IMG/VR virus record: IMGVR_UViG_3300030329_001736
Location: 1-64,000 of that record
Source of the DNA: a virus
Reading direction: 5' to 3' (one strand)
DNA length: 64,000 nt
Shown here: piece after piece, positions 4,060-38,053 of the stretch
How the letters are laid out: every line of letters begins with the position of its first letter
Position numbering within the stretch: position 1 is the first letter of the stretch
Translations under genes and position numbers: made by a program
Notes under the pieces: model-generated
Seen by the model: only the letters and a program-made list of their open reading frames with translations
What the model was told of the DNA's origin: nothing
The model's database searches: none

Positions 4060-5845
4060 AAACCCCGAAATGCCCGCTAAGGCCCCTAGGAAGCCCACGC
4101 AGAAGAATAAGGGTGTTTCTGGGGGCAGGGTAGCCAAGGCATCGAAGAAGGCTACTCAGGAACGCTCTGAGGAGTCTGTTTCAGAAGATTTCAGGATGTT
4201 TCTCTTCTTGATCTGGAAACATCTCAGTTTACCACCCCCAACTCCGGTACAGTACAACATTGCAACCTATCTACAACATGGTCCAAAGCGATCTTGCGTA
4301 CAAGCATTTCGAGGAGTCGGTAAATCGTGGATTACCTCCGCATTTACGTTATGGACTCTCTACAGAAACCCCGAGACGAAAATACTCGTTGTCAGTGCGT
4401 CTAAGGAAAGAGCGGATGCATTTTCGACGTTTACTCTCAGACTTATTTCAGAGGTGCCATTTCTCAAGCACCTAAAACCCAAAGAAGAACAGAGAAGCTC
4501 CAAGATTGCCTTTGATGTAGGACCGGCAAAAGCCGCTCATGCCCCCAGTGTCAAATCTGTGGGAATCACAGGACAGCTAACAGGCTCCCGTGGCGACCTG
4601 ATCATCGCTGATGACGTTGAAGTTCCCAATAACAGTGCAACACAGCAGATGCGAGACAAGCTCAGTGAGCAAGTCAAGGAGTTTGACGCTGTGTTAAGCC
4701 CTGGGGGACGTATAATCTACTTAGGAACCCCTCAGACTGAAGACAGCCTGTATCAGGCACTGTCTGACCGTGGGTATGACCTGAGGGTTTGGCCCGCATT
4801 AAAACCTAGTGCCAAGGAAGAGGCGCAGTATGGGAATATGCTGGCTGATTTCATAAGTGATCTGCCAATGGAACCGGGTGATCCCACCGATCCTCTCAGG
4901 TTTGACACTGAAGACCTACTGGAACGCAAGGCATCCTACGGTAAAGCTGGGTTTGCCCTACAGTTCATGTTGAATACCCAGTTATCTGATGTTGAAAGGT
5001 ATCCGCTGAAGGTCAGGGATATCCTGTTCATGGCGTGTGACAAGACACTGGCACCCATGAAGATTGGCTGGGGGCCTGATGAGGACAGGCGGCTGAATAG
5101 TCTGCCTAACACAGCCATGAATGGGGATTACATGTATGCCCCCATGCATATCGACAGGGAACATGTGTCTGAATACACAGGGTCAGTCATGGCTATTGAC
5201 CCCTCAGGCAGAGGTCAAGATGAGACAGGGTACGCTGTGGTCAAGATGCTCAATGGGTATCTGTTTGTTGTAGCCTGTGGGGGACTCAAGGGGGGCTATG
5301 ATGACCAGACGTTACAGACACTGGCTGGACTTGCTAAGAGTCACTCAGTGAATTCTGTGATTGTCGAGAGCAACTTCGGTGATGGGATGTACACCAAACT
5401 GCTGATCCCTGTGATGAACAAGATACACAGGGTGATGATTGAAGAGGTGAGGCACAGTCAGCAGAAAGAGAAGCGCATCATAGACACCATAGAGCCTGTG
5501 GTAGCCAGACATAAGCTGGTGATCGATCCCAGTGTGGTCGAAGAGGACTACAGGAGTGCCCAGAAGTACGACCAGTCTGTCAGACTCAGTAAACAACTGA
5601 TCTACCAGATGACCAGGGTTACCTATGAACGTGGAGCCCTGAGACATGACGATAGGCTTGATGCATTGTCCATGGCTGTTGGCTACTGGGTAGAACAGAT
5701 GGCTAGAGATGAATCACTGGGTATATCAGAAGAGAGAGATAAGGCTTTGCAAGCTGAACTGGATGACTTTGCTGATATGGTGAGAAACCCAATGGTGAAC
5801 AGGAAACAAAACCAGCATACAAGACCACTGGTCTGGATGAATTAA
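4040..5845 (+). CDS. terL: terminase large subunit (DNA maturase B)
   Basis: This is the packaging ATPase and nuclease that fills the prohead. After a basic leader of about 45 residues it has Walker A FRGVGKSW (about residue 90), Walker B LIIADDVE (about 186), and a nuclease domain opening with AIDPSGRGQDETGY (about 383). A later acidic site is RHDDRLDALSMAV. Length, about 601 residues, matches T7 gp19. The frame also opens with TTG at 4037; I chose the ATG at 4040, while the ATG at 4070 would remove only ten residues. It is the last gene of the phage A right end, and no gene follows for about 660 bases. Confidence 0.93.
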   Translation: MTKNCTKNPEMPAKAPRKPTQKNKGVSGGRVAKASKKATQERSEESVSEDFRMFLFLIWKHLSLPPPTPVQYNIATYLQHGPKRSCVQAFRGVGKSWITSAFTLWTLYRNPETKILVVSASKERADAFSTFTLRLISEVPFLKHLKPKEEQRSSKIAFDVGPAKAAHAPSVKSVGITGQLTGSRGDLIIADDVEVPNNSATQQMRDKLSEQVKEFDAVLSPGGRIIYLGTPQTEDSLYQALSDRGYDLRVWPALKPSAKEEAQYGNMLADFISDLPMEPGDPTDPLRFDTEDLLERKASYGKAGFALQFMLNTQLSDVERYPLKVRDILFMACDKTLAPMKIGWGPDEDRRLNSLPNTAMNGDYMYAPMHIDREHVSEYTGSVMAIDPSGRGQDETGYAVVKMLNGYLFVVACGGLKGGYDDQTLQTLAGLAKSHSVNSVIVESNFGDGMYTKLLIPVMNKIHRVMIEEVRHSQQKEKRIIDTIEPVVARHKLVIDPSVVEEDYRSAQKYDQSVRLSKQLIYQMTRVTYERGALRHDDRLDALSMAVGYWVEQMARDESLGISEERDKALQAELDDFADMVRNPMVNRKQNQHTRPLVWMN

Positions 5846-5866
5846 TATGGTGCCATACTAGAAGGA
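5843..5866 (+). promoter_or_regulatory. phage RNA polymerase promoter, right-end copy
   Basis: The segment GGTGCCATACTAGAAG matches the SP6 promoter core GGTGACACTATAGAAG at 12 of 16 positions, and TAAT stands upstream as in the T7 promoter. The predicted start is G5861. It lies just after terL, where T7 has its right-end origin promoter. The 12-base core recurs exactly at 8915, 13880 and 24298. Confidence 0.65.
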
Positions 5867-5868
5867 AT

Positions 5869-5894
5869 GGGGGGTTACCTACCTGTATCCCCCC
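5869..5894 (+). other. G6/C6 hairpin next to genome-end region
   Basis: GGGGGG (5869-5874) pairs with CCCCCC (5889-5894) across a 14-base loop. It starts a few bases after the predicted transcription start of the adjacent promoter, so any transcript would begin with this hairpin. No T-run follows, so an ordinary terminator is less likely than a processing or packaging signal. Confidence 0.5.
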
Positions 5895-6120
5895 TAGGGT
5901 AACCTTAGGGTAATACAACTGTCCCCCTCCGGTTGGAACCTAAGGTTACCCCCTTCAATAGGAGTACCCTAGGGTAACCTTAGGGTAGTCAAAGGGTAGC
6001 CAAAGGGTAATCCTAGGGAATGAATATCATTATTCATAACAATGAAGATAAAGACCCCTGGGTAACAGTGACCCGGTGCAGAATCCATAAGACTTGGTTG
6101 TCTGATTAACCTGTAGGGTT
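5892..6120. repeat. GGGTAACC-type repeats at probable genome-end junction
   Basis: A 21-base unit built from CCCTAGGGTAACC and TTAGGGTA occurs exactly at 5892-5912 and 5967-5987. Its core is inverted at 5939-5951 (CCTAAGGTTACCC). Further short copies (AAAGGGTA twice, GGGTAATCCTAGGG, CTGGGTAACAG, GTAGGGTTAC) continue to about 6120. An inverted repeat TGAATA-TCAT-TATTCA lies at 6021-6036. T7 flanks its terminal repeats with arrays of a short CCT-AAAG motif. The position between terL and the early genes suggests the same packaging/end function here. No gene lies between 5846 and 6510. The 6140-6320 part is GC-rich with no gene I can support. Confidence 0.6.
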
Positions 6121-6435
6121 ACATATGTACCGCTTGTATTTTCACTGAAAAATCTCAGGGGGTTGAATTAGCGCGAGCCTTCCCCGCTCCCCCCTTGGCC
6201 CCTCGCGCCGGGGTGTCTGACATTCATTCGTTAGGGGCCCCTCGGGTGCCCTCAGGGCGTCTAGACACAGCGCCCGACACAGCCCCGCCCAGCGGCCCCA
6301 CAATCCCCCCAGATTTACACATTTATTTAACATGTAGGCGAGCCTCAGGGCTCATCCTGTGGTTGATCCAAGGGGGAACCGTTGGGGTGCCCGCTGGTTG
6401 TCTATGTCTGTCCGTTTGTTTTTGTCCCCGTCATT

Positions 6436-6475
6436 TTTTTTATTTTCCCTATTGCAACCCCTGTATAATTGTGAA
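6436..6475 (+). promoter_or_regulatory. sigma70-like early promoter
   Basis: A perfect TATAAT stands at 6464-6469 behind a T-rich stretch, but the -35 element (TATTTT at 17 bases) is weak. The site is 42 bases before the first small early gene, where T7-like phages place the promoters used by the host polymerase before the phage polymerase is made. Confidence 0.5.
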
Positions 6476-6510
6476 TAATGAGCATAGATACAACAAACCG
6501 GGGGCACCTA

Positions 6511-6654
6511 ATGGACGAACTAACCCTGACCGTCTGTCGCTTGACGTTTCTTTTCATCGTGGTTTCGCCGCTGGTGATCATGTTGGGCTTTACGATCCAC
6601 GATATATACCGCCGCGCCAAGGGAAAGCCGCCGTATCACAAGGGGGAATTCTAG
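6511..6654 (+). CDS. 47-aa single-pass membrane early protein
   Basis: The ATG at 6511 follows a GGGGG ribosome binding site (6499-6503). The 47-residue product has one hydrophobic segment at about residues 8-30 (CRLTFLFIVVSPLVIMLGF) and a basic C-terminal tail ending RRAKGKPPYHKGEF. Base composition changes from the AT-rich promoter to a GC-rich coding pattern here. It is the first gene of the early region, and small membrane or host-takeover proteins are common in this position. No family is recognised. From 6655 to 6768 I see no supported gene. Confidence 0.5.
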   Translation: MDELTLTVCRLTFLFIVVSPLVIMLGFTIHDIYRRAKGKPPYHKGEF

Positions 6655-6768
6655 GTGGAGACCGCCGCAAGCCAATAAATCCCCCTACTGATGAGCGGGG
6701 GTGGTCCCCCCGCGAAACAGTCCTGAAATACGGGCTGTCTAGGGAAACTGAACAGAGGGAACTTAGAA

Positions 6769-6945
6769 ATGTTCGACATTGAAACCACGATGCCCGTGCC
6801 CACCAATACCAAGCCCATCGAAACCATTGACCGCGTGACTATCGACGCGCCACCGCCGCGCCACGGGGAAGGGCCTGCCGTTTTCGATTATTGTCTGGCC
6901 GCCGGTCGCGACCGCGTAGGCTTGAGGGGGGATAACTATGCGTAA
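6769..6945 (+). CDS. 58-aa hypothetical early protein
   Basis: The ATG at 6769 is preceded by AGAGGGA. The product (58 residues) begins MFDIETTMPVPTNTKPIETI and ends GRDRVGLRGDNYA. The stop overlaps the next gene's ATG by eight bases, which suggests coupled translation. It contains a proline stretch (DAPPPRHGEGP) and no membrane segment. No family is recognised. Confidence 0.55.
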   Translation: MFDIETTMPVPTNTKPIETIDRVTIDAPPPRHGEGPAVFDYCLAAGRDRVGLRGDNYA

Positions 6946-7699
6946 ATCCCTGCACGTTGTAAGCCTGTTTGATTTTACAGGGGCTGCGCTGGCCCCGTTT
7001 GCAAGCGCCGGTTTCAAGTGTTTTGCCTATGATATTCAGCATGAAGCCCGCGAGTATCCGTGGAAGCTTCCCGCCACGCGGGTAGACAATCTGGGCATTC
7101 GGTACATCCATGCTGATCTAGCCAGCCCCGATTATCTCCAAGCCATCGTGGACAGGCACAAGGGACGCACGCTCTTGTTATCTGCGTTCCCGCCTTGTAC
7201 GGACCTCGCCGCTTCGGGTGCCCGCTGGTGGAAGGCTAAGGCGGCGCGGAACCCGCACTTCCAAGAGGAAGCGGCGGCGATGGCTCGCAATGCAAGCGCG
7301 ATAGGCCGCATGCTCAATTGCCATTGGTATCTGGAAAATCCCATCGGTGCCCTGTCGCGCTTGTGGCGCAAACCTGATTACAAATTCCAGCCTTATGAGT
7401 ATTCCGGCTACATCCCTAAGGCTGATAGTATCCACCCGCTATATCCTGAGTACATCCCAGCGCGCGACCTCTACCGCAAACGCACTTGCATCTGGCATGG
7501 CGGGGGCTTTGTCGTACCGCCTAAGGAACAAGCAGGCGAACCGGTCAGCCTTGTTTATCAGCGCCGCGACCCGCGCAAGGGTGCCAACTTCTCGCCTCAG
7601 GCGGGAAAGCTTGGTGGCACCAGCCAGAAAACCAAAAACATACGCAGCGCCACGCCTAGGGGCTGGTCTAATGCCGTCTATTTGTTTAATTCCATGTAA
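6938..7699 (+). CDS. C5-cytosine-methyltransferase-like protein
   Basis: The protein has 253 residues, with AGGGGGG just before the ATG. It carries a reduced set of C5-methyltransferase motifs in order: LFDFTGAALAPFASAGF and AYDIQH (SAM-binding motif I, about residues 9-35), FPPCTDLAASGARWW (catalytic PPC loop, Cys about residue 87), and WYLENPIGAL (ENP, motif VI-like, about 130). A long target-recognition domain is not evident. The last part, TPRGWSNAVYLFNSM, is where motif X would be. It may methylate or otherwise modify phage DNA to evade restriction. The catalytic Cys and ENP are visible; specificity and actual product are unknown. It is encoded just before the GP88 protein in the early region. 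Confidence 0.7.
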   Translation: MRKSLHVVSLFDFTGAALAPFASAGFKCFAYDIQHEAREYPWKLPATRVDNLGIRYIHADLASPDYLQAIVDRHKGRTLLLSAFPPCTDLAASGARWWKAKAARNPHFQEEAAAMARNASAIGRMLNCHWYLENPIGALSRLWRKPDYKFQPYEYSGYIPKADSIHPLYPEYIPARDLYRKRTCIWHGGGFVVPPKEQAGEPVSLVYQRRDPRKGANFSPQAGKLGGTSQKTKNIRSATPRGWSNAVYLFNSM

Positions 7700-7712
7700 C
7701 TTGTAAGGGGAC
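7693..7712 (+). promoter_or_regulatory. conserved 20-base leader element
   Basis: CATGTAACTTGTAAGGGGAC belongs to a family of four intergenic elements (also 8011, 13839, 17638) with consensus CCTGTAA-n2-TGTAAGGGGAT placed 6-9 bases before a start codon. The AAGGGGA part is a Shine-Dalgarno sequence; the upstream conservation exceeds what ribosome binding needs. Confidence 0.5.
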
Positions 7713-7718
7713 TACCAA

Positions 7719-8018
7719 ATGACAGATACAACACACCAGCTAGACCTTGATCTCACCCAGCGCGAAAACCAGCGCCTCACATATCCGCAACTAGAGGCGA
7801 AACTTGGGATTTTACACGGCACCATGCACAGCGCCAAGGCCCTAGGGCTTCTATACAGGTGCCAAGACTTCCAGCGGCGTTGCAAGAGCTTGGATATCAA
7901 CCAGCGCGAGCTAGGGCTGTACATGATTTCGCAATGGGTCTTGATGCGCGTGGAACTGGCGAAAACGCCGAAAGCTCTTGCGTCTACCGTAGACCGTTTG
8001 CGCCGTTTTACCTGTTAA
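7719..8018 (+). CDS. 99-aa hypothetical early protein
   Basis: The protein is helical and Leu/Arg-rich, beginning MTDTTHQLDLDLTQRENQRL. It has no signal, membrane segment or cysteine cluster beyond single Cys residues. The start follows a conserved leader ending in AAGGGGA. A second conserved leader lies at its end, before the GP88 gene. It belongs to the run 6769-8913 of closely packed early genes. I do not recognise a family. Confidence 0.65.
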   Translation: MTDTTHQLDLDLTQRENQRLTYPQLEAKLGILHGTMHSAKALGLLYRCQDFQRRCKSLDINQRELGLYMISQWVLMRVELAKTPKALASTVDRLRRFTC

Positions 8019-8030
8019 ATTCGAGGGGAT
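8011..8030 (+). promoter_or_regulatory. conserved 20-base leader element
   Basis: CCTGTTAAATTCGAGGGGAT is the most diverged copy of the leader family described at 7693. It provides the GAGGGG ribosome binding site for the ATG at 8036. Confidence 0.45.
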
Positions 8031-8035
8031 TACAA

Positions 8036-8812
8036 ATGACAACGATTAAATCTCTAAAGGCTGAACTGAAAGCCCGTGGCGTCAATTCGTTCTTTACCGC
8101 GCCGGATGCTAACCCGAAGATTGCCAAGAACATGAAAGATGGCGTGATAACGTGGGGGCTACACTTAGCGCCCGCCGATCTATCGGGTTTCAACGTGTGC
8201 GCGGCGTCCACGGCGGGGTGCCGTGAAGCTTGTCTCCATACCGCTGGCAATCCGCTGTATATGGCAGCAAAAGAAAAGGCCCGCATCGCCCGCACTAAGC
8301 TTTACTTTCAAGATCGTGAATTATTTTTACAGGGCTTGCAGCGCGAAATAGATGCGGCATTCAGGAAAGCCAAGCGGGTAAACATGGCACCTGCATTTCG
8401 GCTTAATGCAACGTCTGACATACCATGGGAACGGGTGGCGCTTGGCGGCGAAACTGTGATTGACTACATCAACGCCAACGGCGGCGAGACCTACGATTAC
8501 ACCAAGCGGGCGAACCGTAAACCGCCTGCCGGTTATCACCTTACATTCAGTCTCGCAGAGAGTAACCTAGGGGACGCCGTAGACGCCTACAGGCGCGGCC
8601 TTAATGTTGCTGTGGTATTTGACACCCCAAAGGGCAAGCCATTGCCGTCTACATGGTCCCTAGGGCCGATCAAGGGCGTCCCTGTACATGACGGAGACCT
8701 GAGCGATTATCGCCCCGCTGATCCTAGCCCTTGCGTTGTTGGGCTGCGTGCCAAGGGCGACGCCATAGGCGATCAATCTGGATTTGTGCAAGCGGCAGGG
8801 GAGGCGGTCTAA
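8036..8812 (+). CDS. GP88-family protein
   Basis: The frame extends upstream to 7859, but the ATG at 8036 has GAGGGGAT at the right distance and leaves the conserved region intact, giving 258 residues. The signature is GFNVCAASTAGCREACLHTAG (about residues 59-79): four cysteines in the arrangement of the phage gene product 88 family. TKLYFQDRELFLQGL and LRLNATSDIPWE-type elements follow (here FRLNATSDIPWERV). The cysteines probably bind metal or an iron-sulfur cluster. The biochemical role of the family is not established. It sits directly after the methyltransferase-like gene, which may hint at DNA modification or host takeover. Confidence 0.75.
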   Translation: MTTIKSLKAELKARGVNSFFTAPDANPKIAKNMKDGVITWGLHLAPADLSGFNVCAASTAGCREACLHTAGNPLYMAAKEKARIARTKLYFQDRELFLQGLQREIDAAFRKAKRVNMAPAFRLNATSDIPWERVALGGETVIDYINANGGETYDYTKRANRKPPAGYHLTFSLAESNLGDAVDAYRRGLNVAVVFDTPKGKPLPSTWSLGPIKGVPVHDGDLSDYRPADPSPCVVGLRAKGDAIGDQSGFVQAAGEAV

Positions 8813-8913
8813 TGTTTAACGTAATACGGCATTCAGCCCTAGCCCTTGCCTATGCTGTGATTATTGTCGAAATCGTGGCGGCGTTCACCGTTCTAGGGTG
8901 GTTACTCGAATAA
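8812..8913 (+). CDS. 33-aa single-pass membrane protein
   Basis: The ATG shares a base with the GP88 stop (TAATG) and has GGGGAGGCGG upstream. The product begins MFNVIRHSALALAYAVIIVE and is almost one continuous hydrophobic helix ending TVLGWLLE. It is too short for family assignment. Coupled translation and a good ribosome binding site support expression. It is the last gene before a promoter and terminator pair. Confidence 0.55.
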   Translation: MFNVIRHSALALAYAVIIVEIVAAFTVLGWLLE

Positions 8914-8929
8914 CGCCATACTAGAAATA
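8907..8929 (+). promoter_or_regulatory. phage RNA polymerase promoter copy
   Basis: GCCATACTAGAAATA (8915-8929) repeats the 12-base core found at 5852. The predicted start is G8924. It stands immediately before a strong terminator, so transcripts would be about 50 bases unless read-through occurs. A replication-priming role, as for the left-end origin promoter of T7, is possible. Confidence 0.6.
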
Positions 8930-8940
8930 AACCCCAGTGT

Positions 8941-8972
8941 AACCCCTAGGTTTATCCTAGGGGTTTCTTTTT
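8941..8972 (+). terminator. rho-independent terminator
   Basis: AACCCCTAGG and CCTAGGGGTT form a perfect 10-bp stem with a TTTAT loop, followed by TCTTTTT. It closes the early operon 6511-8913. Confidence 0.9.
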
Positions 8973-9092
8973 GCCTGCCCTCCGCTGCCTCTTAGGGGAG
9001 GCCCAGGCAAGTCTGATAGTAGACCTTCGCGCACACCTTCCCCCTGTGTGATCATGGGCTCGGAATGAGGTGATTCGTTGCCGTTATCGGCA
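8971..9092 (+). ncRNA. hairpin-rich non-coding stretch, candidate structured RNA
   Basis: Five successive local hairpins can be read: TTGCCTG/CAGGCAA (8971-8977 with 9004-9010, plus inner CCTCC/GGAGG), GTCT/AGAC about 9011-9024, CACAC/GTGTG about 9034-9052, GAAT/ATTC about 9063-9076, and TGCCG-TTAT-CGGCA (9079-9092). No open reading frame of note covers it. It may be a structured leader, a small RNA or a recombination site. No known RNA family is recognised. Confidence 0.4.
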
Positions 9093-9140
9093 GTGTCCCT
9101 CCACCTTCCCTCATAACTCTCTGTTTTATATGGGATTAAT

Positions 9141-9177
9141 GTTGTAGGTTTACAACCAATAAAATATTTGATACAAT
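9141..9177 (+). promoter_or_regulatory. sigma70 promoter with overlapping palindromic operator
   Basis: The -35 TTTACA (9149-9154) and -10 TACAAT (9172-9177) are exactly 17 bases apart. A perfect inverted repeat GTTGTA-GGTT-TACAAC (9141-9156) overlaps the -35, and a further half-site GTTGTA lies at 9194-9199. This would drive the regulator and integrase genes from the host polymerase and allow repression, plausibly by the regulator encoded at 9223. Confidence 0.7.
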
Positions 9178-9222
9178 CAGGTTAGAGTCAGGGGTTGTAA
9201 AAATTTACTGAGAGATGCCACA

Positions 9223-9582
9223 ATGTGTGGTCACACAATTTCAGGCGCTAAACTAGCGTACCTACAGAAGATGCGGGCTGTCACGCGATACATGCGTGAG
9301 CTTGATGGGTCTATAAGCGCGTATCAATTAGAGGCGTTCCTGATCGTCGCTGCTGCCGGACCTGACGGCATGTCGATGCGAGACATTGAGAGTCGTATGC
9401 GGATTGGCAATGCCACATTGTCGCGGGTCATGGCAAATTGGTCGAAGTGGAAGAAGCCAGATGTCCCCGGAATGGACATGATCGAAATCAATATTGATCC
9501 AAGGGACCGCCGCTTCCGCATCGCCACCTTGACGCCCAAGGGGCTCGCAGTGGCTGAGAAAATCGCTGCAATGATGGAGTAG
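9223..9582 (+). CDS. MarR-like winged-helix regulator
   Basis: The protein has 119 residues. It has the MarR-type order: helices with SAYQLEAFLIVAAAGPDGMSMRDIESRM, recognition helix GNATLSRVMANWSKW, then a wing with DPRDRRFRIATLTPKGLAVAEKI (DxRxRR..LTxxG is the typical wing motif). It should bind a palindromic operator as a dimer, and a perfect palindrome lies in its own promoter. The integrase gene follows three bases after its stop. I infer a switch controlling integration or lysogeny. There is no CI- or Cro-like gene nearby. Confidence 0.75.
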   Translation: MCGHTISGAKLAYLQKMRAVTRYMRELDGSISAYQLEAFLIVAAAGPDGMSMRDIESRMRIGNATLSRVMANWSKWKKPDVPGMDMIEINIDPRDRRFRIATLTPKGLAVAEKIAAMME

Positions 9583-9585
9583 TGC

Positions 9586-10716
9586 ATGGCACGACAGAGA
9601 GGGAAAGCGTGGTACGGAGTTGTCCGCGTACCAGGCGCGAAAGTTCCGCTACGGAAAAGCTTTGGGTCATCTAAAGATTCCGCTGAAGCGTGGGAAAACG
9701 CCTGTAAACGGGCAATCGCTGACGGCTTGCCAATCCCTGATCCAAACGTGATGAAGGGCGACGGCAGCGTTGGCGAGTTTTTCACCGCTGCTTATGATTA
9801 TCTTTGGGCAAACAAGAAAGGCGCACAAAAAAAGTGGTACGCCGTCCGGCAACAGATCAGGTTTTGGGGTCCAAACCTTCCGGTCTCAGCTATCGACTAC
9901 AACGCGGTGGTCAGGTTCACCACTCACTGGCTAGAGACTGATCAGCCGTCTACGGTCAATCAGAAACTCAGTGATTTGAAGATGATTTTGACACATGCCG
10001 TTGATTGCGGGCACCTCCAGAAGGTTCCTAAAATTAAAAAGCTTCGGCAGAGCCAAGGTCGCCTACGTTTTCTCACCGATCTTGAACGCGCCCAGTTGCT
10101 GCAAGGGTTCCGGCATCTTGGGTTTGAAAACGAATACTGGTTGACGCTCTTTTTGCTTGAGCAAGGAAACCGCATAACTGAGGCTGTTGTGAGGAAGCAC
10201 GGGGATAGCCGCCGGATCGACATGAATACCCCTCCGATTGAGTGGGCCGATGTCTCTACGCCTATAGGCACCGCGCCGAGGGTACAGATTACCCATGAAG
10301 ATGGGAGCGTGACGGATGAGCCAGCGGTCACGTTTTGGAAAACCAAGAATGGAAGCTTCCGGACAATACCGCTGACACCCTTGGCTTGTCAGGCGTTGGA
10401 ATACACCCGCCAGCAAGGCTGGGAGCGACCATTCTCCGAGATCACTTATGAGGGGTATTGGAAATCATTCAAACGAGTGCAGGAGTTTTTGGGGCACGCA
10501 GATGACAAGGAGTATGTGCCGCATATTCTTCGACACACCTGTGCTTCTCAATTTGCCATCAAGGGCATGGACATGCGCCGGATAATGGCTTGGATGGGGC
10601 ACGCATCCATGCAGACAACCCTGCGCTACGCCAAGTTGGCTCCAACTGATTTGTTTAGCATGGTGCCGTCAGCGACACCTGTACAACAACAGCAACAACT
10701 GAGGGTGATTGAATAG
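9586..10716 (+). CDS. int: tyrosine recombinase / integrase
   Basis: The protein has 376 residues. The N-terminal half has an arm-binding and SAM-like core-binding part. The catalytic domain shows the Arg in EQGNRITEAV (about 195), Lys in FWKTKNGSFRTIPL, HILRHTCASQ (HxxR, about 312-316), GHASMQTTLRYAKL with the nucleophile Tyr at about 347, and a Gln-rich tail. It would integrate phage DNA site-specifically into the host chromosome. Integrases are absent from T7 itself but present in several marine T7-like phages that use host tRNA genes as targets. It is cotranscribed with the MarR-like regulator. Confidence 0.92.
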   Translation: MARQRGKAWYGVVRVPGAKVPLRKSFGSSKDSAEAWENACKRAIADGLPIPDPNVMKGDGSVGEFFTAAYDYLWANKKGAQKKWYAVRQQIRFWGPNLPVSAIDYNAVVRFTTHWLETDQPSTVNQKLSDLKMILTHAVDCGHLQKVPKIKKLRQSQGRLRFLTDLERAQLLQGFRHLGFENEYWLTLFLLEQGNRITEAVVRKHGDSRRIDMNTPPIEWADVSTPIGTAPRVQITHEDGSVTDEPAVTFWKTKNGSFRTIPLTPLACQALEYTRQQGWERPFSEITYEGYWKSFKRVQEFLGHADDKEYVPHILRHTCASQFAIKGMDMRRIMAWMGHASMQTTLRYAKLAPTDLFSMVPSATPVQQQQQLRVIE

Positions 10717-10717
10717 C

Positions 10718-11107
10718 ATGAGTTTTAAATCCTACTTGGTGGAACTGAAAAACAAAGAAGACGTTGAGTATCTAGACAGCTATCTGGGCGCACCGGCATT
10801 GGACGGCGTTGTTTTCCTTAATCATGTCTATCGGGCTGACGAGAAGGTGCCGGGTTACTCTACACACACTCTGGTAGCAGCACTGACAGCAGACAGGGCG
10901 GACCTTCCCGCGTCGATGGTGGATGAGGCGGGACTTGGACCAAGACCCCTGAACATTGAGAGGCTGGATAATCTGCCAGATCACCTCAAGATAAAAGAGG
11001 AACACGGTTTTAGCGTTAAGGGGTGGTCAGTGCCTGAGTGGTCAGACGCTACTTGGGCAACCGAAGCCACACGGTATCTTATGACTGTGGTTTATGGCGC
11101 ACGGTAG
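10718..11107 (+). CDS. hypothetical protein downstream of integrase
   Basis: I chose the ATG at 10718 just after the integrase stop; an in-frame TTG at 10709 with better-spaced GAGGGTGA would add three residues. The product has about 129 residues, is acidic and soluble with no membrane segment, and contains WSVPEWSDATWATEATRYLM near the end. No family is recognised. It ends before a gene-free stretch and terminator and belongs to the integrase operon. Confidence 0.65.
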   Translation: MSFKSYLVELKNKEDVEYLDSYLGAPALDGVVFLNHVYRADEKVPGYSTHTLVAALTADRADLPASMVDEAGLGPRPLNIERLDNLPDHLKIKEEHGFSVKGWSVPEWSDATWATEATRYLMTVVYGAR

Positions 11108-11246
11108 TGTGTTTACGCTGTGTCTAATACATACACTTGTGCTTATCAGGTGTAGCTAAGTGGCTGGTTTGAAACACAAATTCCGAAATTACACACTGGC
11201 GAATTCTGTACCCGATCCATGTAGGTGAGCAATACTTGTTAAGAAA
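11108..11246. other. gene-free stretch after integrase, possible attP
   Basis: About 140 bases without a coding frame lie between the integrase operon and the terminator. Repeated TGTGT/TACAC-like words (11108-11160) could be arm sites. 11150-11225 has loose similarity to tRNA sequence (GTGTAGCTAAGTGGC, then GCGAATTCTGTACCC and GATCCA), but no complete cloverleaf forms. The attP call rests on position and these weak hints only. Confidence 0.3.
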
Positions 11247-11282
11247 GGGACGTAGGGCATTGTTTCTACGCCCTTTTCCTTT
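11247..11282 (+). terminator. rho-independent terminator before RNA polymerase gene
   Basis: GGGACGTAG pairs with CTACGCCC (one bulge) around a GGCATTGTTT loop, followed by TTTTCCTTT. It separates the integrase operon from the RNA polymerase gene. Confidence 0.75.
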
Positions 11283-11346
11283 GGTCTAATCCCTGTAATT
11301 CAACAACTATTATGTGTTTACAGGGCACAGCAAAATAGGGGTGAAA

Positions 11347-13836
11347 ATGGCTGAGAACAACGCGGTTAATATTTACCATGAGCAACGAGCCCTCGAAGAA
11401 TCCATGCGGTCTGAGACGATCCGGCGTTACCACAGGCTTCACCATAAAGCGCGGCAGCGCGGCGATTATGCCGCAACCCACACAGGTCGCGCTGTGCTGC
11501 ATCACGCTATCGATGCTTTTGAAATTGCGATTGATAACTTTAAGTCTGATAGCAATTCGGGAAAACCCGGCAAGCGGCACACCGCCGCTAAAATGCTAGA
11601 CACAGTTGATACTCCCACCGTTGCTTATCTGTTCACGCGGGCAATTCTCAATTTTGTACCGATCTCGACAAAAGAGGGGGCTACTGCCGCACTATCTGCT
11701 GTGGCAATCCGAGGCTGTACCTTGATCCACGACGAGATGCGGATACGCTTTTTCGCTGAGAACCACTTCAAGCTTGCCCGCAAGATGTTGCAGGATTTTG
11801 ACGCCCGTGATCTGCCTCGCCGCCGCCGGAAGGAGATGCTCCAGCGCAAATTCTCGCAGATGCGGATGGAATGGGCGGTGTGGTCGAAGCGCGAGATGGT
11901 CAGCCTAGGTCGCGTGCTTGTTGAGCTTTTCGGAAACGCAACCGGCATGACACACATTAGCCAGGTTTTCGAGAACGGGAAGAAGCGGACAATAGTACAG
12001 CCTACTGCTGAGATGCTGACAAAAATCGAGGAGCGGATCAAAGCTAACGAAGACATATTCACTGTCTTCTTGCCCATGATCACCAAGCCCAAGCCGTGGC
12101 AGAACGGTAAGCTATTTGGGGGCGGATATTTCACAGACAATGTGACAGCTTACCCACTGGTCAAAGGGATCAAGCGGCAATTCCTTGAAGAGATGAATAA
12201 CATGGACTTGTCCGAAGTTCTCCGCGCCGTCAACGCCATCCAAGAGGTGCCGTTTCGCATCAGTGCCGTCATGCCGGACCTGTTGGAGCATGTCTTCTCT
12301 CTAAACAGAGAGCTTGCGGGTCTCCCCCTCGCTGACCAAGAACCTATCCCTGACGCACCAGCGGGTGCTGATGTTGACGGGGAGATAAAAAATTCCTACC
12401 GGCGGGAATGCTACCAAGTTCACGATAAAAACCGCCGCCGGATTTCCAAGCGTTTGATGGTGGCGCGCGTTATCCATCTCGCCAAGCGTTTTGAAAAAAA
12501 TCCTGAGCTTTATTTCCCCGTCCAGATGTGCAGTCGCGGGCGGCTCTATGATGTATCTACGTTCTTAAATCGGCAGGGGCCAGATTTCGTAAAAGCACAG
12601 CTTGAATTCGCGCAGGGAAAGCCCGTTACCACACCTGAGCAAGCAGCATGGCTTGCCGTTATCGGCGCAAATCACTATGGCAAGGACAAGCTGCCGTTAC
12701 AGGAGCGTGCTGATTGGGTGACCGAAAATGAACATTGGATTTTTGAGATTGCCGCCGATCCTTTCAACGACCTTAGATGGACTGACGCGGACGAGCCATT
12801 CCAGTTCGTGCGCTGGTGCATGGAATGGTCGAACTTCAGGCGTGAGGGCTACGGGTACGTGTCTCATCTCCCGTGCAACGTCGATGCTACGTGTAGCGGA
12901 TTACAGGTCTTCAGCGCCGCACTAAGAGACCCTGAGGGTGCCCGCTGGACTAACCTTACCGCACGCCCTGACCGACAAGACATCTACGTGCGTGTCGCGG
13001 AACTCGCTACTGCCAAATTTGAAGCAGAGACAGACCCTGAAAAACTAGACCTTGCCCGTGCCGCTCTGAAATTCGGAATCGGCCGCACTGAGTGCAAGCG
13101 CCCGTGCCTTGTTATACCGTATTCTGGGACGTTCCACGCGGTTATGAAGTACGTGCGTGAGGCAATTCATAAGCGGACCCAGAAAGGGGAAACGCACGCA
13201 TTCATGGAGAACGATTCCAAGTTTATCGCCTATATCTCATCGAAAATATGGGATTCGATACATGAATCAATCCCCGCTGCGCGTGAGTGCATGAAATGGA
13301 TGCAGGCAGCATCACGCCTTGTCTCCAAGAGTGATACACCTATACCTTTAGTTTGGTTTACGCCAGATGGTTTCCCTGTCCAGCAAGCTAGATACGAGCA
13401 GAAGCACGTTCGCGTCTCGACGTTCCTAGACGGAGTGATCTATCGGCTGTCGCTGTTCGAGGACACGCCGAAGCTAGACGCGAAGAAAATGGCATCATCC
13501 ATCGCCCCAAATTGGGTGCATTCCTTAGACGGCTCAATACTGCGCGGCGCAATAAACCTGGCGCTGGATCAAGAAGAAGACTTCGGGCGAGGGCCGGTTT
13601 ACTTCAACACCATACATGACTCATTCGGCACGCACTGTGCTGATCTGCCTGATTTTCTGGAGTACTGTATCAAACCCTCGTTCATACAGATTTTTGATGA
13701 GGGTGACCCGCTTGCTGATTTTGAAAATGAGGTGGCGAAAATAATTAACCAAGATGGGGTCGTGCTGCCACCGCCGCCGGATCGCGGAGACTTCGATGTT
13801 CGCGAGGTCAGGCAGAATGATTTCTTTTTCAGTTAA
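11347..13836 (+). CDS. single-subunit DNA-dependent RNA polymerase
   Basis: The protein has 829 residues from the ATG at 11347, which has TAGGGGTG upstream; the frame extends to an ATG at 11314 without a ribosome binding site. Catalytic elements of T7-type polymerases are visible: VDATCSGLQVFSAALRD (metal-binding Asp, about 510), ECKRPCLVIPYSGT (Lys and Tyr of the fingers, about 581-590) and NTIHDSFGTHCADLP (second Asp, about 757). The enzyme transcribes the phage middle and late genes from its own promoters, for which the repeated CATACTAGAA motif is the best candidate. The amidase at 15247 may restrain it, as in T7. Confidence 0.95.
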   Translation: MAENNAVNIYHEQRALEESMRSETIRRYHRLHHKARQRGDYAATHTGRAVLHHAIDAFEIAIDNFKSDSNSGKPGKRHTAAKMLDTVDTPTVAYLFTRAILNFVPISTKEGATAALSAVAIRGCTLIHDEMRIRFFAENHFKLARKMLQDFDARDLPRRRRKEMLQRKFSQMRMEWAVWSKREMVSLGRVLVELFGNATGMTHISQVFENGKKRTIVQPTAEMLTKIEERIKANEDIFTVFLPMITKPKPWQNGKLFGGGYFTDNVTAYPLVKGIKRQFLEEMNNMDLSEVLRAVNAIQEVPFRISAVMPDLLEHVFSLNRELAGLPLADQEPIPDAPAGADVDGEIKNSYRRECYQVHDKNRRRISKRLMVARVIHLAKRFEKNPELYFPVQMCSRGRLYDVSTFLNRQGPDFVKAQLEFAQGKPVTTPEQAAWLAVIGANHYGKDKLPLQERADWVTENEHWIFEIAADPFNDLRWTDADEPFQFVRWCMEWSNFRREGYGYVSHLPCNVDATCSGLQVFSAALRDPEGARWTNLTARPDRQDIYVRVAELATAKFEAETDPEKLDLARAALKFGIGRTECKRPCLVIPYSGTFHAVMKYVREAIHKRTQKGETHAFMENDSKFIAYISSKIWDSIHESIPAARECMKWMQAASRLVSKSDTPIPLVWFTPDGFPVQQARYEQKHVRVSTFLDGVIYRLSLFEDTPKLDAKKMASSIAPNWVHSLDGSILRGAINLALDQEEDFGRGPVYFNTIHDSFGTHCADLPDFLEYCIKPSFIQIFDEGDPLADFENEVAKIINQDGVVLPPPPDRGDFDVREVRQNDFFFS

Positions 13837-13838
13837 AC

Positions 13839-13858
13839 CCTGTAAATTGTAAGGGGAT
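13839..13858 (+). promoter_or_regulatory. conserved 20-base leader element
   Basis: CCTGTAAATTGTAAGGGGAT follows the RNA polymerase stop directly and ends six bases before the ATG at 13865. It is the best match to the four-member leader family. Confidence 0.5.
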
Positions 13859-13864
13859 ACGGGA

Positions 13865-14011
13865 ATGAAAATGAATATAGCCATACTAGAAATAAAAGAA
13901 TTTTTAAACCAATCAGAGGAGGGCCAGACCCCCATGGATCAAGACTTGGACGACTACGAGTTCCAGCAGAGGCTGGCGGAATTTGGGGAGGATTTCGTTA
14001 TCGATGACTGA
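13865..14011 (+). CDS. 48-aa acidic hypothetical protein
   Basis: The ATG at 13865 follows the leader AAGGGGAT. The 48-residue product begins MKMNIAILEIKEFLNQSEEG and ends in a strongly acidic stretch (DLDDYEFQQ, EFGEDFVIDD). Its first codons contain the phage promoter motif, so the same bases read AILE. The stop overlaps the next gene. Small acidic proteins in this place can be DNA mimics or host enzyme inhibitors, but nothing here proves it. Confidence 0.5.
   Translation: MKMNIAILEIKEFLNQSEEGQTPMDQDLDDYEFQQRLAEFGEDFVIDD
13871..13893 (+). promoter_or_regulatory. phage RNA polymerase promoter copy, middle genes
   Basis: TGAATATAGCCATACTAGAA has the exact 12-base core at 13880-13891. The predicted start is G13889. 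It stands just downstream of the RNA polymerase gene, ahead of the DNA replication genes, the classical position for the first class II promoters of T7-like phages. Confidence 0.65.
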
Positions 14012-14282
14012 TGATGACAACGACGAAATCGACTATCCGGGAAACGTGGTGCCGTTGTTTAGGGATTTAGATAACGATCCTGATGACGAAACAAGTCCAC
14101 TTAACACCGCGCTTTATGCAGGTCCAACTGGCGTATTCATCCAGCAGGAGTCTAGCAGTCTTACCGAAAATGACAACGACTGCGTTGCCTTGACTTGGCA
14201 ACAGACTCAAATGCTGGTGACCAGCCTGATTGGACTTTTGGCCCACAGAATAAATGGAGAATTCAATGGCACACTCCACTAA
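14004..14282 (+). CDS. 92-aa acidic hypothetical protein
   Basis: I took the ATG at 14004, which overlaps the previous stop; the frame also opens at a TTG (13983). The product begins MTDDDNDEIDYPGNVVPLF and is highly acidic in its first half, then ends in a helix WQQTQMLVTSLIGLLAHRI. The last 17 bases overlap the SSB gene. No family is recognised. The neighbours point to the DNA metabolism module. Confidence 0.6.
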   Translation: MTDDDNDEIDYPGNVVPLFRDLDNDPDDETSPLNTALYAGPTGVFIQQESSSLTENDNDCVALTWQQTQMLVTSLIGLLAHRINGEFNGTLH

Positions 14283-15690: not shown

Positions 15691-15693
15691 CGC

Positions 15694-17310: not shown

Positions 17311-17635
17311 CGACTGCCTTTTTGAGCGGGCAGAGAAACTAGCCATACTAGCAGTAGACGATCCGAAGCTCATCCCAGAATATGAATCTGTGATGGCAGA
17401 AATTTCAAAACTAGAAGGAGGGTGGAAAGTGAAAACCGGGCAATCTCAAAATGTGAAAATTCTTAAACACCTACAGGCTGGCAAGACGATCAGCCCTCTT
17501 GAAGCCATGGGCGTCTACGGTGTCTACAGGCTTGCTGCACGTATCTATGAGCTACGTGTATGTGGGTGGAATATTACAAAGCAAATTAAATATGATGGGC
17601 AAGGACGCACTTACGCTGAATATTCCTTAGCCTAA
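17279..17635 (+). CDS. HTH_39-like small DNA-binding protein
   Basis: The protein has 118 residues, starting inside the helicase end (32-base overlap). The second half, KILKHLQAGKTISPLEAMG followed by VYGVYRLAARIYELR, is a helix-turn-helix of the HTH_39 type common in phage replication regions, ending in a beta-rich tail. It probably binds double-stranded DNA. A variant of the phage promoter motif, GCCATACTAG, lies at 17342-17351 inside the gene, ahead of the DNA polymerase. A shorter version from the ATG at 17294 is equally possible. Confidence 0.7.
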   Translation: MRLWQMQKTSDDCLFERAEKLAILAVDDPKLIPEYESVMAEISKLEGGWKVKTGQSQNVKILKHLQAGKTISPLEAMGVYGVYRLAARIYELRVCGWNITKQIKYDGQGRTYAEYSLA

Positions 17636-17637
17636 TA

Positions 17638-17657: not shown

Positions 17658-17663
17658 GACACA

Positions 17664-22817: not shown

Positions 22818-22842
22818 TCAATAGAAGACATACTAGAAGGGA
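22818..22842 (+). promoter_or_regulatory. phage RNA polymerase promoter copy, structural operon
   Basis: GACATACTAGAAGGGAA (22827-22843) repeats the core with one change. The predicted start is G22836. It lies between the nucleotide genes and the virion genes, the expected place for a late promoter. Confidence 0.62.
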
Positions 22843-23269: not shown

Positions 23270-23271
23270 AT

Positions 23272-23463: not shown

Positions 23464-23466
23464 GCT

Positions 23467-25104
23467 ATGTATGGTAATGTCTCTTGTGCTGCCCGATATG
23501 AGAAGTTAGCGACTGAAAGAGAAACCTTCCTTAGTAGGGGGCGAGAGTGTGCAAAGCTTACAATACCGGCATTGCTTCCTGATGCTGGGCATTCCTCATC
23601 TTCAATACTACACACTCCCTACCAAGGTATCGGGGCACGGGGAGTCAATAACCTAGCGTCCAAACTACTGTTGAGCCTTCTCCCGCCAAACACTCCATTC
23701 TTTCGGTTTGTGCTGGATGATTTTACAGCTACGGAGTTGGCTCAACAGCCTGGGGCTAGGGCGCAGATAGAAGAAGCACTGAATAAAATAGAGCGGTCTA
23801 TTCAGGCCGAAATTGAAAGTCAAAACCTAAGATCAATTATATTTGAAGCTCTGAAGCAATTGATCGTTGTTGGTAATGTTCTTGTCTATCTACCAAAAGA
23901 TGAAGGCGCGCGGGTATTCGATCTTCGCCGGTATGTTGTACAGCGTGACCCCATGGGTACTCCCTTAAATATCATCATTAAGGAAAGCGTATCTCCTGAG
24001 GTTCTGGACGATAAAGTCAGGGAAGCTGTACTCCAGAATATGCAAGACACAGACAACAGTAAGACCAGCACAGACAAGTCTATAGATGTTTACACCGCAA
24101 TGTACAGAGACGGAAAGCGGTGGAGATTACACCAAGAGATAAATGCCACGGTAGTTCCCGGCTCTGAAGGTACTTGGCCTATCGATAAGTCCCCCATGCT
24201 CCCCCTTCGGTGGGAGAGGATTGACTCTGAAGACTACGGTCGATCCTATGTAGAGCAATACAAAGGGGATATGATTTCTCTAGAAGGAATCTCTAAAGCC
24301 ATACTAGAAGCCACAGCGGCAAGCGCCAAAGTGGTGTTCATGGTTAACCCCAATGGTACTACCCGTGCCCGTGATATCGCTGATGCACCAAACGGTGCGA
24401 TAGTTAGCGGGAATGCTAGTGAGGTCACTGTCCTCCAAGCAGAAAAATACAATGACATGAGGGTAGCCCGTGAAACCGCTCAGGGGATTGAGCAACGCAT
24501 GGCGTTTGCTTTCCTGATGAACACAGCGGTTCAGCGCGACGGGGAAAGAGTCACTGCTGAAGAAATAAGGCGCATGTCCCAAGAATTGGATGACGCACTT
24601 GGCGGCACTTTCAGCTTAATGTCAGAAGAATTCCAGTTACCACTGGTGACTAGGATAATGGACAGGATGACAAAACAAAGGCGACTGCCAGCGTTGCCTA
24701 AGGGCGTTGTGAAGCCTGCGATTGTCACTGGCCTTGAAGCCTTAGGCAGAGGTCACGATCTCAATAAGCTAGACATGTTCTTCCAAGGTCTAGCCCAGTT
24801 ACCCCCTGAGGTTCTGGCTAACTACCTCAATGTTGGTGACTACATTAAGCGAAGGGGAACATCACTAGGCATTGATATGGACGGCTTGGTGAAATCTGAG
24901 GAACAAATTCAACAAGAACAGATGGCAGCGCAACAGGCGCAGCAACAACAAATGCAACAACAGGGCGCGATGGACTTGGCTAATAAAGCTGTAGGAAGTG
25001 GGACCGGCCCTGCAATCAAAGCCGCTGCTGACATAGGGCAGAGCATGGACCCTGAAATGGCCCAGCAGATGGCTCAACAGATTCAAGAGGCGACAGGACA
25101 ATAA
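23467..25104 (+). CDS. portal (head-tail connector) protein, T7 gp8-like
   Basis: The protein has 545 residues and would form the dodecameric portal. The N-terminus has RYEKLATERETFLSRGRECAKLTIP, then SILHTPYQGIGARGVNNLASKLLLSLLPPNTPFFRF, the hallmark of T7-type connectors. GYVEQYKGDM-type clip residues (here RSYVEQYKGDMISLEGISKAI) and a Gln-rich tail follow. It is directly followed by the scaffold gene. The phage promoter core GCCATACTAGAAG occurs inside the gene at 24298. Confidence 0.92.
   Translation: MYGNVSCAARYEKLATERETFLSRGRECAKLTIPALLPDAGHSSSSILHTPYQGIGARGVNNLASKLLLSLLPPNTPFFRFVLDDFTATELAQQPGARAQIEEALNKIERSIQAEIESQNLRSIIFEALKQLIVVGNVLVYLPKDEGARVFDLRRYVVQRDPMGTPLNIIIKESVSPEVLDDKVREAVLQNMQDTDNSKTSTDKSIDVYTAMYRDGKRWRLHQEINATVVPGSEGTWPIDKSPMLPLRWERIDSEDYGRSYVEQYKGDMISLEGISKAILEATAASAKVVFMVNPNGTTRARDIADAPNGAIVSGNASEVTVLQAEKYNDMRVARETAQGIEQRMAFAFLMNTAVQRDGERVTAEEIRRMSQELDDALGGTFSLMSEEFQLPLVTRIMDRMTKQRRLPALPKGVVKPAIVTGLEALGRGHDLNKLDMFFQGLAQLPPEVLANYLNVGDYIKRRGTSLGIDMDGLVKSEEQIQQEQMAAQQAQQQQMQQQGAMDLANKAVGSGTGPAIKAAADIGQSMDPEMAQQMAQQIQEATGQ
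24298..24310 (+). promoter_or_regulatory. internal copy of phage promoter core
   Basis: GCCATACTAGAAG is an exact match to the 12-base core, with the following G also shared with the copy at 5852, inside the portal gene where it encodes AILE. The predicted start is G24307. It could drive scaffold and capsid genes, whose transcription must be high. Upstream bases fit the consensus less well. Confidence 0.45.
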
Positions 25105-37100: not shown

Positions 37101-38053
37101 AGAATCCTGATGGGACGTTCTCATACATTCCATACCAGAGATATGAGCCCTTATCTAATTTCCTAGGTATTGCCGCTGATTTATATGAATTACAAAAAGA
37201 AGCCTTACTAGAAGGTAGGAAAGGGGAGGAAGACCGCGTTGAAGATATTGTATTAGGTCTTATTACTGCGATTAGTGAAAACACAATTAACAAAACGTAC
37301 ATGCGCGGCCTCAGTGATTTTATGGAAGCGTTGATTAGCCCTGAAAGGTCTTTTGAACGAGTTGCTGCTGGTGTTGTAAAAAGCTTCAGTCCAAACATTA
37401 TCAACCAATTAAATAACGATCCGTATCTAAGAGAAACCAGAAGTATTCTTGATGGGCTTCGGTCTGCTTGGAATACAGAATTAGGCGGTATGGCAGCACC
37501 GCGAAAACGAAACGCTTTGGGAGAGCCCATCCTTAGACAGACTTCTAAAGCACACCCTTTTACAGCATCTGAGCGCGATCCTGATGATATTGTACTGAAT
37601 GAACTTGCAGCTATCGCTCAGTACACAGGTAAAACCTTTGGTCTTCCGTCTGACAGAAGGATGGGGACAAACAAAGATTTCTCTCTGGTGCCGCTAGAAG
37701 ATGGAATGTCTGTCTTTGAAACTTATCTGGATGATATACACACTTTAAAAATAGGGGGTAAGACGCTAAGGCAGCGTTTAGAGAGGTTAATCTCTAGTCC
37801 TTCTTATCAAAAACTCTCCCCAGGAAGTCGTGATTTTAAAGACGGCCCAAGAGTTGAGCGTCTACAGAGTTTGATCAATACTTACAAGAAAACTGCCAGA
37901 AAGAAACTGTTTGCTAAAGGGCGATCTTCAACTGCGCCTGAAGGTTTACGGATGTTCTACCAAGAATCTAGAAAATTTCTAAAAGATGAAGCAGCGACAA
38001 AACGCGGGGGTCCACCGAAAGAGTTCAAAGATTTAATACTGAGGCGAAACTGA
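34145..38053 (+). CDS. internal virion protein D, T7 gp16-like (1302 aa)
   Basis: The very long ejection protein has an acidic N-terminus, several hydrophobic stretches (about residues 155-185, 270-285, 950-970) and a basic C-terminal region. T7 gp16 has an N-terminal lytic transglycosylase; no clear ExxxS/GLMQ motif is visible here, so peptidoglycan opening may be left to another protein. It is expected to span the inner membrane during DNA ejection. A one-mismatch copy of the promoter core (GCCTTACTAGAAGG) lies inside at 37202. Confidence 0.85.
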   Translation: MSDAFNLDEETKQTIELLKSDPEQYTEIFDSLYGKGMSAQVLGQQDAFSVSEVTAPPETEDDGGAWFEVGDTIQGVAHGVAKAGEAIMSLADTPAQWLSENVGTVTMFDPVTGEFDPQILSGEEVTEYIKQGGSTDFGNAASDLIGAPDTVVGSGVSGITQFVVGWVGPGKFAKAATFIKAGTAHAAKKKGLSKAATTRAVQRAERQFNPTKKFQVAEGMVRGAIADFTAFEGSDGNLSNWLHEMGVDNAITEGLMTNPEDGELINRMKTALEGVVLGGMIEGVILAFRARSHLMKGNAEEANTLATEAETSLKDGAAKEQEALGAREQEAMDGTPAPKEINDNPDLEEVTFRHYDAEGETPLFPETASERAARKLNEQEDIRSYNESLRNPNSPHFKGTQELADTILHGSGIRMQQTGESFDPQTFGGDRAKQAANFSRRLRIVTDDDDIQDVLITVGQRLEDEFKILKGGDVQSHVEVRQRLNGYATTLAKLYKESPKKLLDRFSELSPGDYTKLAADLAAKSQFADTLAKHIAQTARTWTSFKEGVIDEDRLKELGFESKEDFKLQSMAMVELYGNLEGIVRGQVTAVARALNAQKMSYKEGTMLNKALIAKMGRSESAMTAYFRDVVEASNAGGHRNIPSPKDIASRWDRLNSLRINFMLSGPNTQIINTVSNFMNMNLLPMEQAMGGAVAGDRQEIMRGIRQLGATYGSMWNAMKMAARALKEDQTILDQLNKVEQDELQQGIFGGEKVSFSNIAEFKRTGKSVRNWANLTTTLPSRLLLFSDEFFKQATYSGKLHADLWVAGQKEIADGKLTKDKLTDWINTKAKEAYDPETGAAVATTKAGAKLSPHSKAALDIARESTFTTELDGFFATIQALAIKYPAARFVLPFVRTPTNLLLATWRRAPGVNLARKQGKIRRDLRSSDPSIRAQARGKIFTGWAITGVAGFLAHSGIITGSGPSNPKDKKELMATGWRPYSIRRENPDGTFSYIPYQRYEPLSNFLGIAADLYELQKEALLEGRKGEEDRVEDIVLGLITAISENTINKTYMRGLSDFMEALISPERSFERVAAGVVKSFSPNIINQLNNDPYLRETRSILDGLRSAWNTELGGMAAPRKRNALGEPILRQTSKAHPFTASERDPDDIVLNELAAIAQYTGKTFGLPSDRRMGTNKDFSLVPLEDGMSVFETYLDDIHTLKIGGKTLRQRLERLISSPSYQKLSPGSRDFKDGPRVERLQSLINTYKKTARKKLFAKGRSSTAPEGLRMFYQESRKFLKDEAATKRGGPPKEFKDLILRRN
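37202..37215 (+). promoter_or_regulatory. variant phage promoter core
   Basis: GCCTTACTAGAAGG differs by one base from the copy at 5852 and lies on the plus strand less than 1 kb before the fibre gene. Because it encodes ALLEG inside a long gene, chance is harder to exclude than for the intergenic copies. Confidence 0.3.

Follow-up and report, generated by a model that had tools for sequence, protein, structure and literature searches.

The window analysed here comprises 64,000 nucleotides, positions 1 to 64,000 of the IMG/VR virus record IMGVR_UViG_3300030329_001736, from an uncultured marine T7-like phage (phage A). A 12-base word, GCCATACTAGAA, recurs along this window, and its copies are very probably the promoters of the T7-type RNA polymerase that the phage itself encodes (11347-13836). 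With high confidence this applies, as judged from comparative evidence, to the copies at 5852, 8915, 13880, 22827, 24298 and 37202. A further copy at 17342 is a doubtful promoter and stays outside the supported sites. The established part comprises the recurrence of the word at orthologous places, the constraint on its copies in the portal gene and at 37202, its largely coherent change in one relative and its enrichment in one group of phages. An earlier note on this DNA had already read the word as a promoter, and this reading gains support from the conservation, the codon constraint, the shared change to TATTAG, the recurrence behind the polymerase gene (19 of the 20 loci compared) and the rough agreement with promoter places in T7 and LUZ100. 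Each T7-type polymerase has its own signal, and the word is thus a new but expected example.

The repeated word and the polymerase

The four exact copies that the earlier note had listed (5852, 8915, 13880 and 24298) were recovered by a scan. Three additional copies carry one mismatch, namely 17342 (GCCATACTAGCA), 22827 (GACATACTAGAA) and 37202 (GCCTTACTAGAA). The first and last of these had been given correctly, while the middle one had been placed one base off, at 22828. It was also claimed that all copies are on the plus strand, which is true for 7/7 copies with at most one mismatch. When two mismatches are allowed, 15 matches are found in the 64 kb, compared to 5.2 expected, and none of 100 shuffles reached this number. 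The minus-strand matches and all matches past 44 kb carry two mismatches each, and beyond 44.7 kb the 100,092-base record contains no exact copy. Without having been chosen beforehand, GCCATACTAGAA is the 12-mer with the highest exact count (4) on the plus strand of bases 1-44400, and the best 12-mer in each of 20 order-3 Markov simulations reached 2-3 exact copies. With one mismatch allowed its count is 7, which was equalled in one of the 20 simulations.

The proposed placement at module boundaries holds for four of the seven copies, which are found at the borders of transcription units: past terL, behind the early open reading frames (ORFs), behind the polymerase gene and ahead of the virion genes. 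The copies at 17342, 24298 and 37202 are located inside genes instead. More precisely, copy 5 separates the ribonucleotide reductase gene from the virion genes, and copy 7 precedes the tail fibre gene by about 0.8 kb. Copy 3 falls within the first codons of a small ORF that was read by eye; in the related locus L006 the counterpart of this ORF is a listed ORF (4061-4198).

The T7-type polymerase noted at 11347 was confirmed by its matches to PF00940 (8e-76) and, with phmmer, to T7 RNA polymerase (7.5e-88). It keeps the residues aligned with D537, K631, Y639 and D812 of the T7 enzyme, which we take to be the catalytic residues there. Relatives were collected as IMG/VR loci (L numbers) that encode homologues of five phage A proteins, the closest at 79-93% identity. 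More remote are CRP-403, CRP-118 and CRP-804, three phages isolated from marine Roseobacter, with polymerases that are 41-42% identical. The region that aligns with the T7 specificity loop is near-identical in the window, L005 and L006, and differs in these CRP phages, whose word differs as well.

In the proposed mechanism, the polymerase would recognise a core from -9 to +3, G[C/A]C[A/T]TA[C/T]TA|GAA, and the RNA would start at the G of TAG. The replication, virion and packaging genes would be transcribed rightward from about six sites, and run-off RNA made by the polymerase would depend on an intact CATACTAG. Binding, start base and strength of the individual sites are predictions from the sequence.

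The word in relatives

Orthologues of the copy after terL are found at L008:5889 and L009:11786. After the polymerase gene, the word is present in L005:2571, L006:4076 and L007, while L005, L088 and L089 have it ahead of the virion genes. Counterparts of copy 5 overall were found in L005, L088, L153, L154, L164, L169, L170, L225 and L238, of which L164, L169, L170, L225 and L238 carry the variant CCCTTACTAGAAGGGAAG. Before the early terminator, L006:152 and L007:152 read GCCATACTAGAT, with a final T, and L006 also has a hairpin and T-run there, i.e. the same promoter-terminator pair as at copy 2. On the contig IMGVR_UViG_3300020431_000444 (L005 and L149), five of the seven sites are in place. 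In more distant loci the place after terL is occupied by the variants GACATACTAGGA (L011) and TCCATACTAGAG (L012), and no clear copy after terL was found in L010. The flanks of the orthologous copies differ, except downstream of the terL-side copy, where a GGAATGGGGGGTTA-like sequence is common to the window, L008 and L009.

According to the earlier note, an equal frequency of the motif in unrelated phages would speak against promoters. Instead, 11 exact copies were counted in 20 close loci (18 contigs, 181 kb; a set chosen by similarity, partly after the matches were known) and 0 in 271 other loci (2.68 Mb). A looser pattern gave 23 and 6 matches, respectively. Four of these 6 are CCCTTATTAGAA in a single phage group (L244-L247), possibly that group's own promoter. 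Neither set includes the CRP phages, T7, T3, LUZ100, Syn5, L315-L328, duplicates or any part of the record itself, whose first 44.7 kb were counted separately. In the CRP-403, CRP-118 and CRP-804 genomes, CATACTAGAA is absent.

The word also changes with the polymerase. On the contig IMGVR_UViG_3300030329_001717 (L153/L243), whose polymerase is about 60% identical, TATTAG stands at four places: past the polymerase gene, within the lysozyme gene, ahead of the virion genes and within the portal gene. Both copies of L154 read TATTAG, and so do two words of L242, one past the polymerase gene and one inside the lysozyme gene. Sites lying apart in a single genome have changed together, as would be expected if one protein reads them. 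The change from TACTAG to TATTAG is probably one evolutionary event. As far as the sequences tell, the word thus appears conserved with the polymerase and changing with it in a largely coherent manner, with few independent events and with the 17342 place not following.

Across the wider group, TA[CT]TAG is found 42-52 bases past the polymerase stop codon in 19/20 loci, against a background of 1-9% of 121-base windows in the same sequences. Some of these 20 loci are near-identical (L320/L321/L322/L326; L315/L316/L318; L323 and CRP-403; L324/L328 and CRP-118), and L007, L242 and L243 are excluded from the count. Some other groups were seen by eye to have TATAG words shortly after the polymerase gene (e.g. 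L061, L024, L190).

The places also agree, in some cases only roughly, with annotated promoters. In T7 (NC_001604 annotation), phiOR, phi1.1A and phi6.5 are found at the places of copies 1, 3 and 5. Phi9 (after the portal gene) and phi17 are located at gene borders, whereas copies 6 and 7 are inside genes, some 0.8 kb upstream of the equivalent borders, and no T7 counterpart of copy 2 could be named. Both systems share the direction and, with the start predicted here, a G preceded by TA. The conserved element of T7 is longer, with TATA at -4 to -1, and that of the phage studied here is a core of about 12 bases with ACTA. LUZ100 is a temperate T7-like Pseudomonas phage, for which excerpts of the original study report transcription starts mapped by ONT-cappable-seq (PMC10134795). 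Its polymerase is 32% identical and its gene order (MarR, integrase, terminator, polymerase) matches the window. Promoters phi2/phi3 after the polymerase gene and phi8 after terL are placed like copies 3 and 1. Most LUZ100 promoters contain ATTACCACACAG, unlike the word of the window.

As an alternative, a DNA-binding regulator might use the word as its operator, for instance the MarR-like protein encoded at 9223 (phrog_9665, transcriptional regulator, 4.6e-17). Such a gene is indeed present, the 8915 copy lies upstream of it, and MarR control of phage transcription is proposed in excerpts of the LUZ100 study (PMC10134795). However, the word lacks palindromic symmetry, and its orientation always follows that of the genes. 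Copies also occur within late virion genes and past terL, places at which lysogeny control would not be expected, and a similar word follows the polymerase gene across the group. An operator is regarded as very unlikely.

Constraint inside genes and points on either side

Four copies (13880, 17342, 24298 and 37202) follow the reading frame and translate as AILE, AILA, AILE and ALLE, respectively. It was therefore necessary to test a coding origin, which is absent from the earlier note: A-I/L-L-E could be a frequent helical peptide that is written with preferred codons. The copies at 5852, 8915 and 22827 are intergenic, which already speaks against this explanation. At amino-acid-identical positions of the portal gene, the codon agreement between the window and seven relatives is only 34-46%. 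Nevertheless, GCC ATA [C/T]TA GAA is kept in 8/8 portal sequences (loci with GISKAILE, with near-identical copies such as L089 left out). The GCC, ATA and GAA make up 3 of the 10 codon-invariant columns among 250 amino-acid-invariant columns. Among 132 amino-acid-invariant windows of four codons in five sequences (without L153, L154 and L225), the portal copy is the sole codon-invariant one; with three sequences, the word window is 1 of 4 invariant in 250. CRP-804, CRP-118 and CRP-403 keep AILE as well, but write it with other codons (GCTATCCTTGAG, GCTATTCTCGAA and GCAATCCTAGAG).

The copy at 37202 lies inside KEALLE, the longest codon-invariant run of 785 columns (three sequences; L150 gave no match and was dropped). 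Only 4/198 windows in this gene are codon-invariant, and 3 of these are in the KEALLE run. The portal and 37202 copies are hence constrained at the DNA level. A two-mismatch copy at 33391 is coding and has no counterpart in a pattern search of the relatives, as a chance copy should behave, and it is treated as chance. Coding coincidence as a general explanation was rejected by the codon tests at 24298 and 37202, and it is scarcely credible for the set as a whole.

For the 17342 copy alone, a coding origin is quite likely because L006 (polymerase 81% identical) and L238 read otherwise at this place (GTTTTATTGGCA and GCTGTGCAAGCA, both without the word). The word is kept in L005 and L233, but the genes are similar throughout (codon identity 0.56-0.80), and 9/39 windows are codon-invariant between the window and L005. 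In L153 the place reads GCCTTACTAGCA, i.e. TACTAG instead of TATTAG. This fits a non-promoter, yet it is also the one exception to the TATTAG pattern.

Concerning the register, the best alignment would place the RNA start at the G of TAG. At 17/17 aligned sites from four mainly intergenic groups, selected by a TAG-containing word, the predicted start is a G that is followed by A or G. These sites, related by descent, have A/T at -15, -14 and -13 in 17, 16 and 14 of 17 cases, a preference compatible with the AT-rich element that T7-type promoters carry about 13-17 bases upstream. A start two bases later, aligned on ACTA, is a possibility, although it is disfavoured because the pre-polymerase copies of most CRP-type loci read CTAGAC and would then start at C. 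The G of TAG is also favoured by other groups, in which TATAG or CATAG occupies this place.

Several observations weigh against promoters of the phage polymerase. The box at -4 to -1 is ACTA and not TATA, the bases from -12 to -10 are not conserved across the copies, and when aligned on ACTA (TACTAGA with T3 CACTAAA), the CRP words match the T3 promoter better upstream. Copy 2 runs directly into a terminator. No copy of the word was found between the integrase and polymerase genes of the window, whereas LUZ100 has a promoter, and CRP-403 and CRP-804 a copy of their word, right before the polymerase gene, and the lysozyme-gene word of the relatives is absent from the window as well. L317, the exception among the 20 polymerase loci, reads TACTAA, and so does L013 after terL (GACGTACTAAGA). 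The AlphaFold model of the polymerase (pLDDT 48.7) was unusable and was not used. The readings of L006, L238 and L153 at the 17342 place have to be added to this list.

An RNA-level element (a processing site or ribosome-binding context) instead of a DNA promoter is hardly plausible: TAGAAGG does contain a Shine-Dalgarno-like AGAAGG before the gene following 22827 and stable hairpins follow copies 1 and 2, but at 8915, 13880 and 17342 the word is not followed by GG, nor by a start codon at a distance suited to ribosome binding (by eye), the conservation reaches 9 bases upstream of the G, and the places match annotated phage promoters.

Neighbouring elements and related phages

Table 1. Putative promoter copies and neighbouring features of the window
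Feature	Position	Strand	Remarks
Putative promoter, copy 1	5852..5863	+	Exact; begins 7 bases past the terL end; predicted start G5861
Repeat array of CCTAGGGTA type with hairpins	5892..6020	+	Repeat family D4; downstream of copy 1
Putative promoter, copy 2	8915..8926	+	Exact; past the early ORFs, upstream of a terminator; predicted start G8924
Intrinsic terminator after copy 2	8941..8965	+	10-pair stem, T-rich tail; RNA fold z -3.0
Sigma-70-like host promoter candidate	9149..9177	+	10/12, TG before the second hexamer; before the MarR-like gene
Terminator-like hairpin	11251..11270	+	Between the integrase and RNA polymerase genes
T7-type single-subunit RNA polymerase, 829 aa	11347..13836	+	PF00940, phmmer
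Putative promoter, copy 3	13880..13891	+	Exact; past the polymerase gene; predicted start G13889
Doubtful copy 4	17342..17353	+	One mismatch; in a gene between primase-helicase and DNA polymerase
Putative promoter, copy 5	22827..22838	+	One mismatch; before the virion operon; predicted start G22836
Putative promoter, copy 6	24298..24309	+	Exact; in the portal gene, upstream of scaffold and capsid
Putative promoter, copy 7	37202..37213	+	One mismatch; in a large virion protein gene

The copies at 5852 and 8915 may possibly have roles in replication or packaging. From the end of copy 2 to the stem of its strong terminator there are 15 bases, and the pair, which is also found in L006, could yield a terminated RNA of roughly 50 bases. 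It is tentatively suggested, as a rather doubtful option, that this RNA serves as a replication primer or that the site is an attenuated positive-feedback promoter. In the feedback variant, read-through into the MarR-integrase-polymerase block may replace the pre-polymerase promoter of CRP-403, CRP-804 and LUZ100. The 8915 copy is the nearest one upstream of the polymerase gene, and its terminator precedes the MarR-like and integrase genes.

Downstream of copy 1, a very stable nested hairpin was found at 5861-5992 (RNA fold z -5.0), with CTGTCCCCCTCCGG in the inner loop region and CCTTAGGGTA repeats. The hairpin and repeat region is partly aligned and conserved in L008 and L009, and the alignment is gappy beyond these two. 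It recalls the end repeats of T7, and the array at 5892..6020 is possibly a genome-end or packaging region.

The sigma-70-like candidate at 9149-9177 and the hairpin at 11251-11270 together resemble the layout of the LUZ100 lysogeny block, although the total of sigma-70-like matches is at chance level and terminator-like matches overall are near chance (23 vs 19.8). None of the 18 sigma-70 matches in 5500-25400, defined by -35 and -10 hexamers with a spacing of 16-18, overlaps a copy of the word (37202 is outside this scanned range).

A promoter-like word is also present inside the lysozyme gene of relatives, as TACTAG in L005 (4265), L006 (5752) and L233 and as TATTAG in L153 and L242. T7 phi3.8 and LUZ100 phi4 similarly sit near the lysozyme gene.

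The earlier note described the motif as SP6-like, with 12 of 16 positions matching. This is correct for the 5852 copy, the only one with GGTG upstream (GGTG....TAGAAG), and not for the other copies, so that the label holds loosely. Compared to the SP6 consensus, -5 to -3 differ, and the core is ACTAG, not TATAG. An SP6-class sequence, upstream plus -8 to -1 in all copies, was not found.

Syn5 provides another short core promoter of a marine phage polymerase, given as ATTGGGCACCCGTAA|G in excerpts of the original report (PMC3950665). One copy follows terL there too (44801; terL ends at 44791), but the sequence is different and the start comes after GTAA.

In CRP-403, CRP-118 and CRP-804 the word consists of AACC or CACC, one variable base and then TTACTAG, TTATTAG or TTTCTAG, usually with an AT-rich TTAAT-like block upstream, unlike in the window. 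These words are mostly intergenic; all three phages have one behind the polymerase gene, CRP-403 and CRP-804 also one ahead of it, and we infer that the words are promoters. The available main text of the CRP phage paper (PMC11092137) contains the term "promoter" 0 times. CRP-804 carries a minus-strand word, TTAATCACCCTTATTAGAA, just before the leftward glutaredoxin/thymidylate synthase genes (L140:40605), which suggests that its phage polymerase also drives this operon. In CRP-113 and CRP-125 (L145 and L146; polymerase 33-34%) the word is TTAGGTTGCACCATAG. Words of this type flank the polymerase gene on both sides and also follow terL (in CRP-113 as TAGGTTGCACCTTAAGGGG), and they are likely the promoter of a second group of Roseobacter phages. 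In CRP-118 and CRP-125, counting words de novo mainly returned repetitive sequence. Furthermore, L014 (2507-2620), L015, L016 and L017 (terL 64-68%) have ACGACACTATAAGGGGGA or GTACACTATACGGGGGA after terL, sequences that closely resemble T7/SP6 promoters.

The word was not found described in the roseophage, pelagiphage and Autographiviridae promoter literature, which was represented mostly by titles and abstract openings with few subscription journals; the comparison also included parts of the reports on KP34 (PMC6834552) and EM1 (PMC9596486). If the word is indeed read by the phage polymerase, a short promoter of an uncultured marine T7-like phage would be at hand, to which those of isolated Roseobacter phages could be added by extension, and polymerase-promoter pairs would become available for orthogonal expression work. 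Promoters buried in virion genes would be recognisable by their loss of synonymous drift, and synonymous constraint would thus offer a route to regulatory sites in uncultured phages without transcriptomics.

A prophage scan of genome contigs gave one remote match, in a Synergistaceae MAG (metagenome-assembled genome) at 29% identity, and indicated no host. Finally, the record looks composite: the tail genes found at 1-942 and 1355-1684 are matched by others at 38055 and 44403 (40% and 30%), and the G+C content is 0.50 at 40-42 kb but falls to 0.34 at 45-47 kb. The match to L011 extends to 46413, so that a join, if any, may lie beyond 46413.

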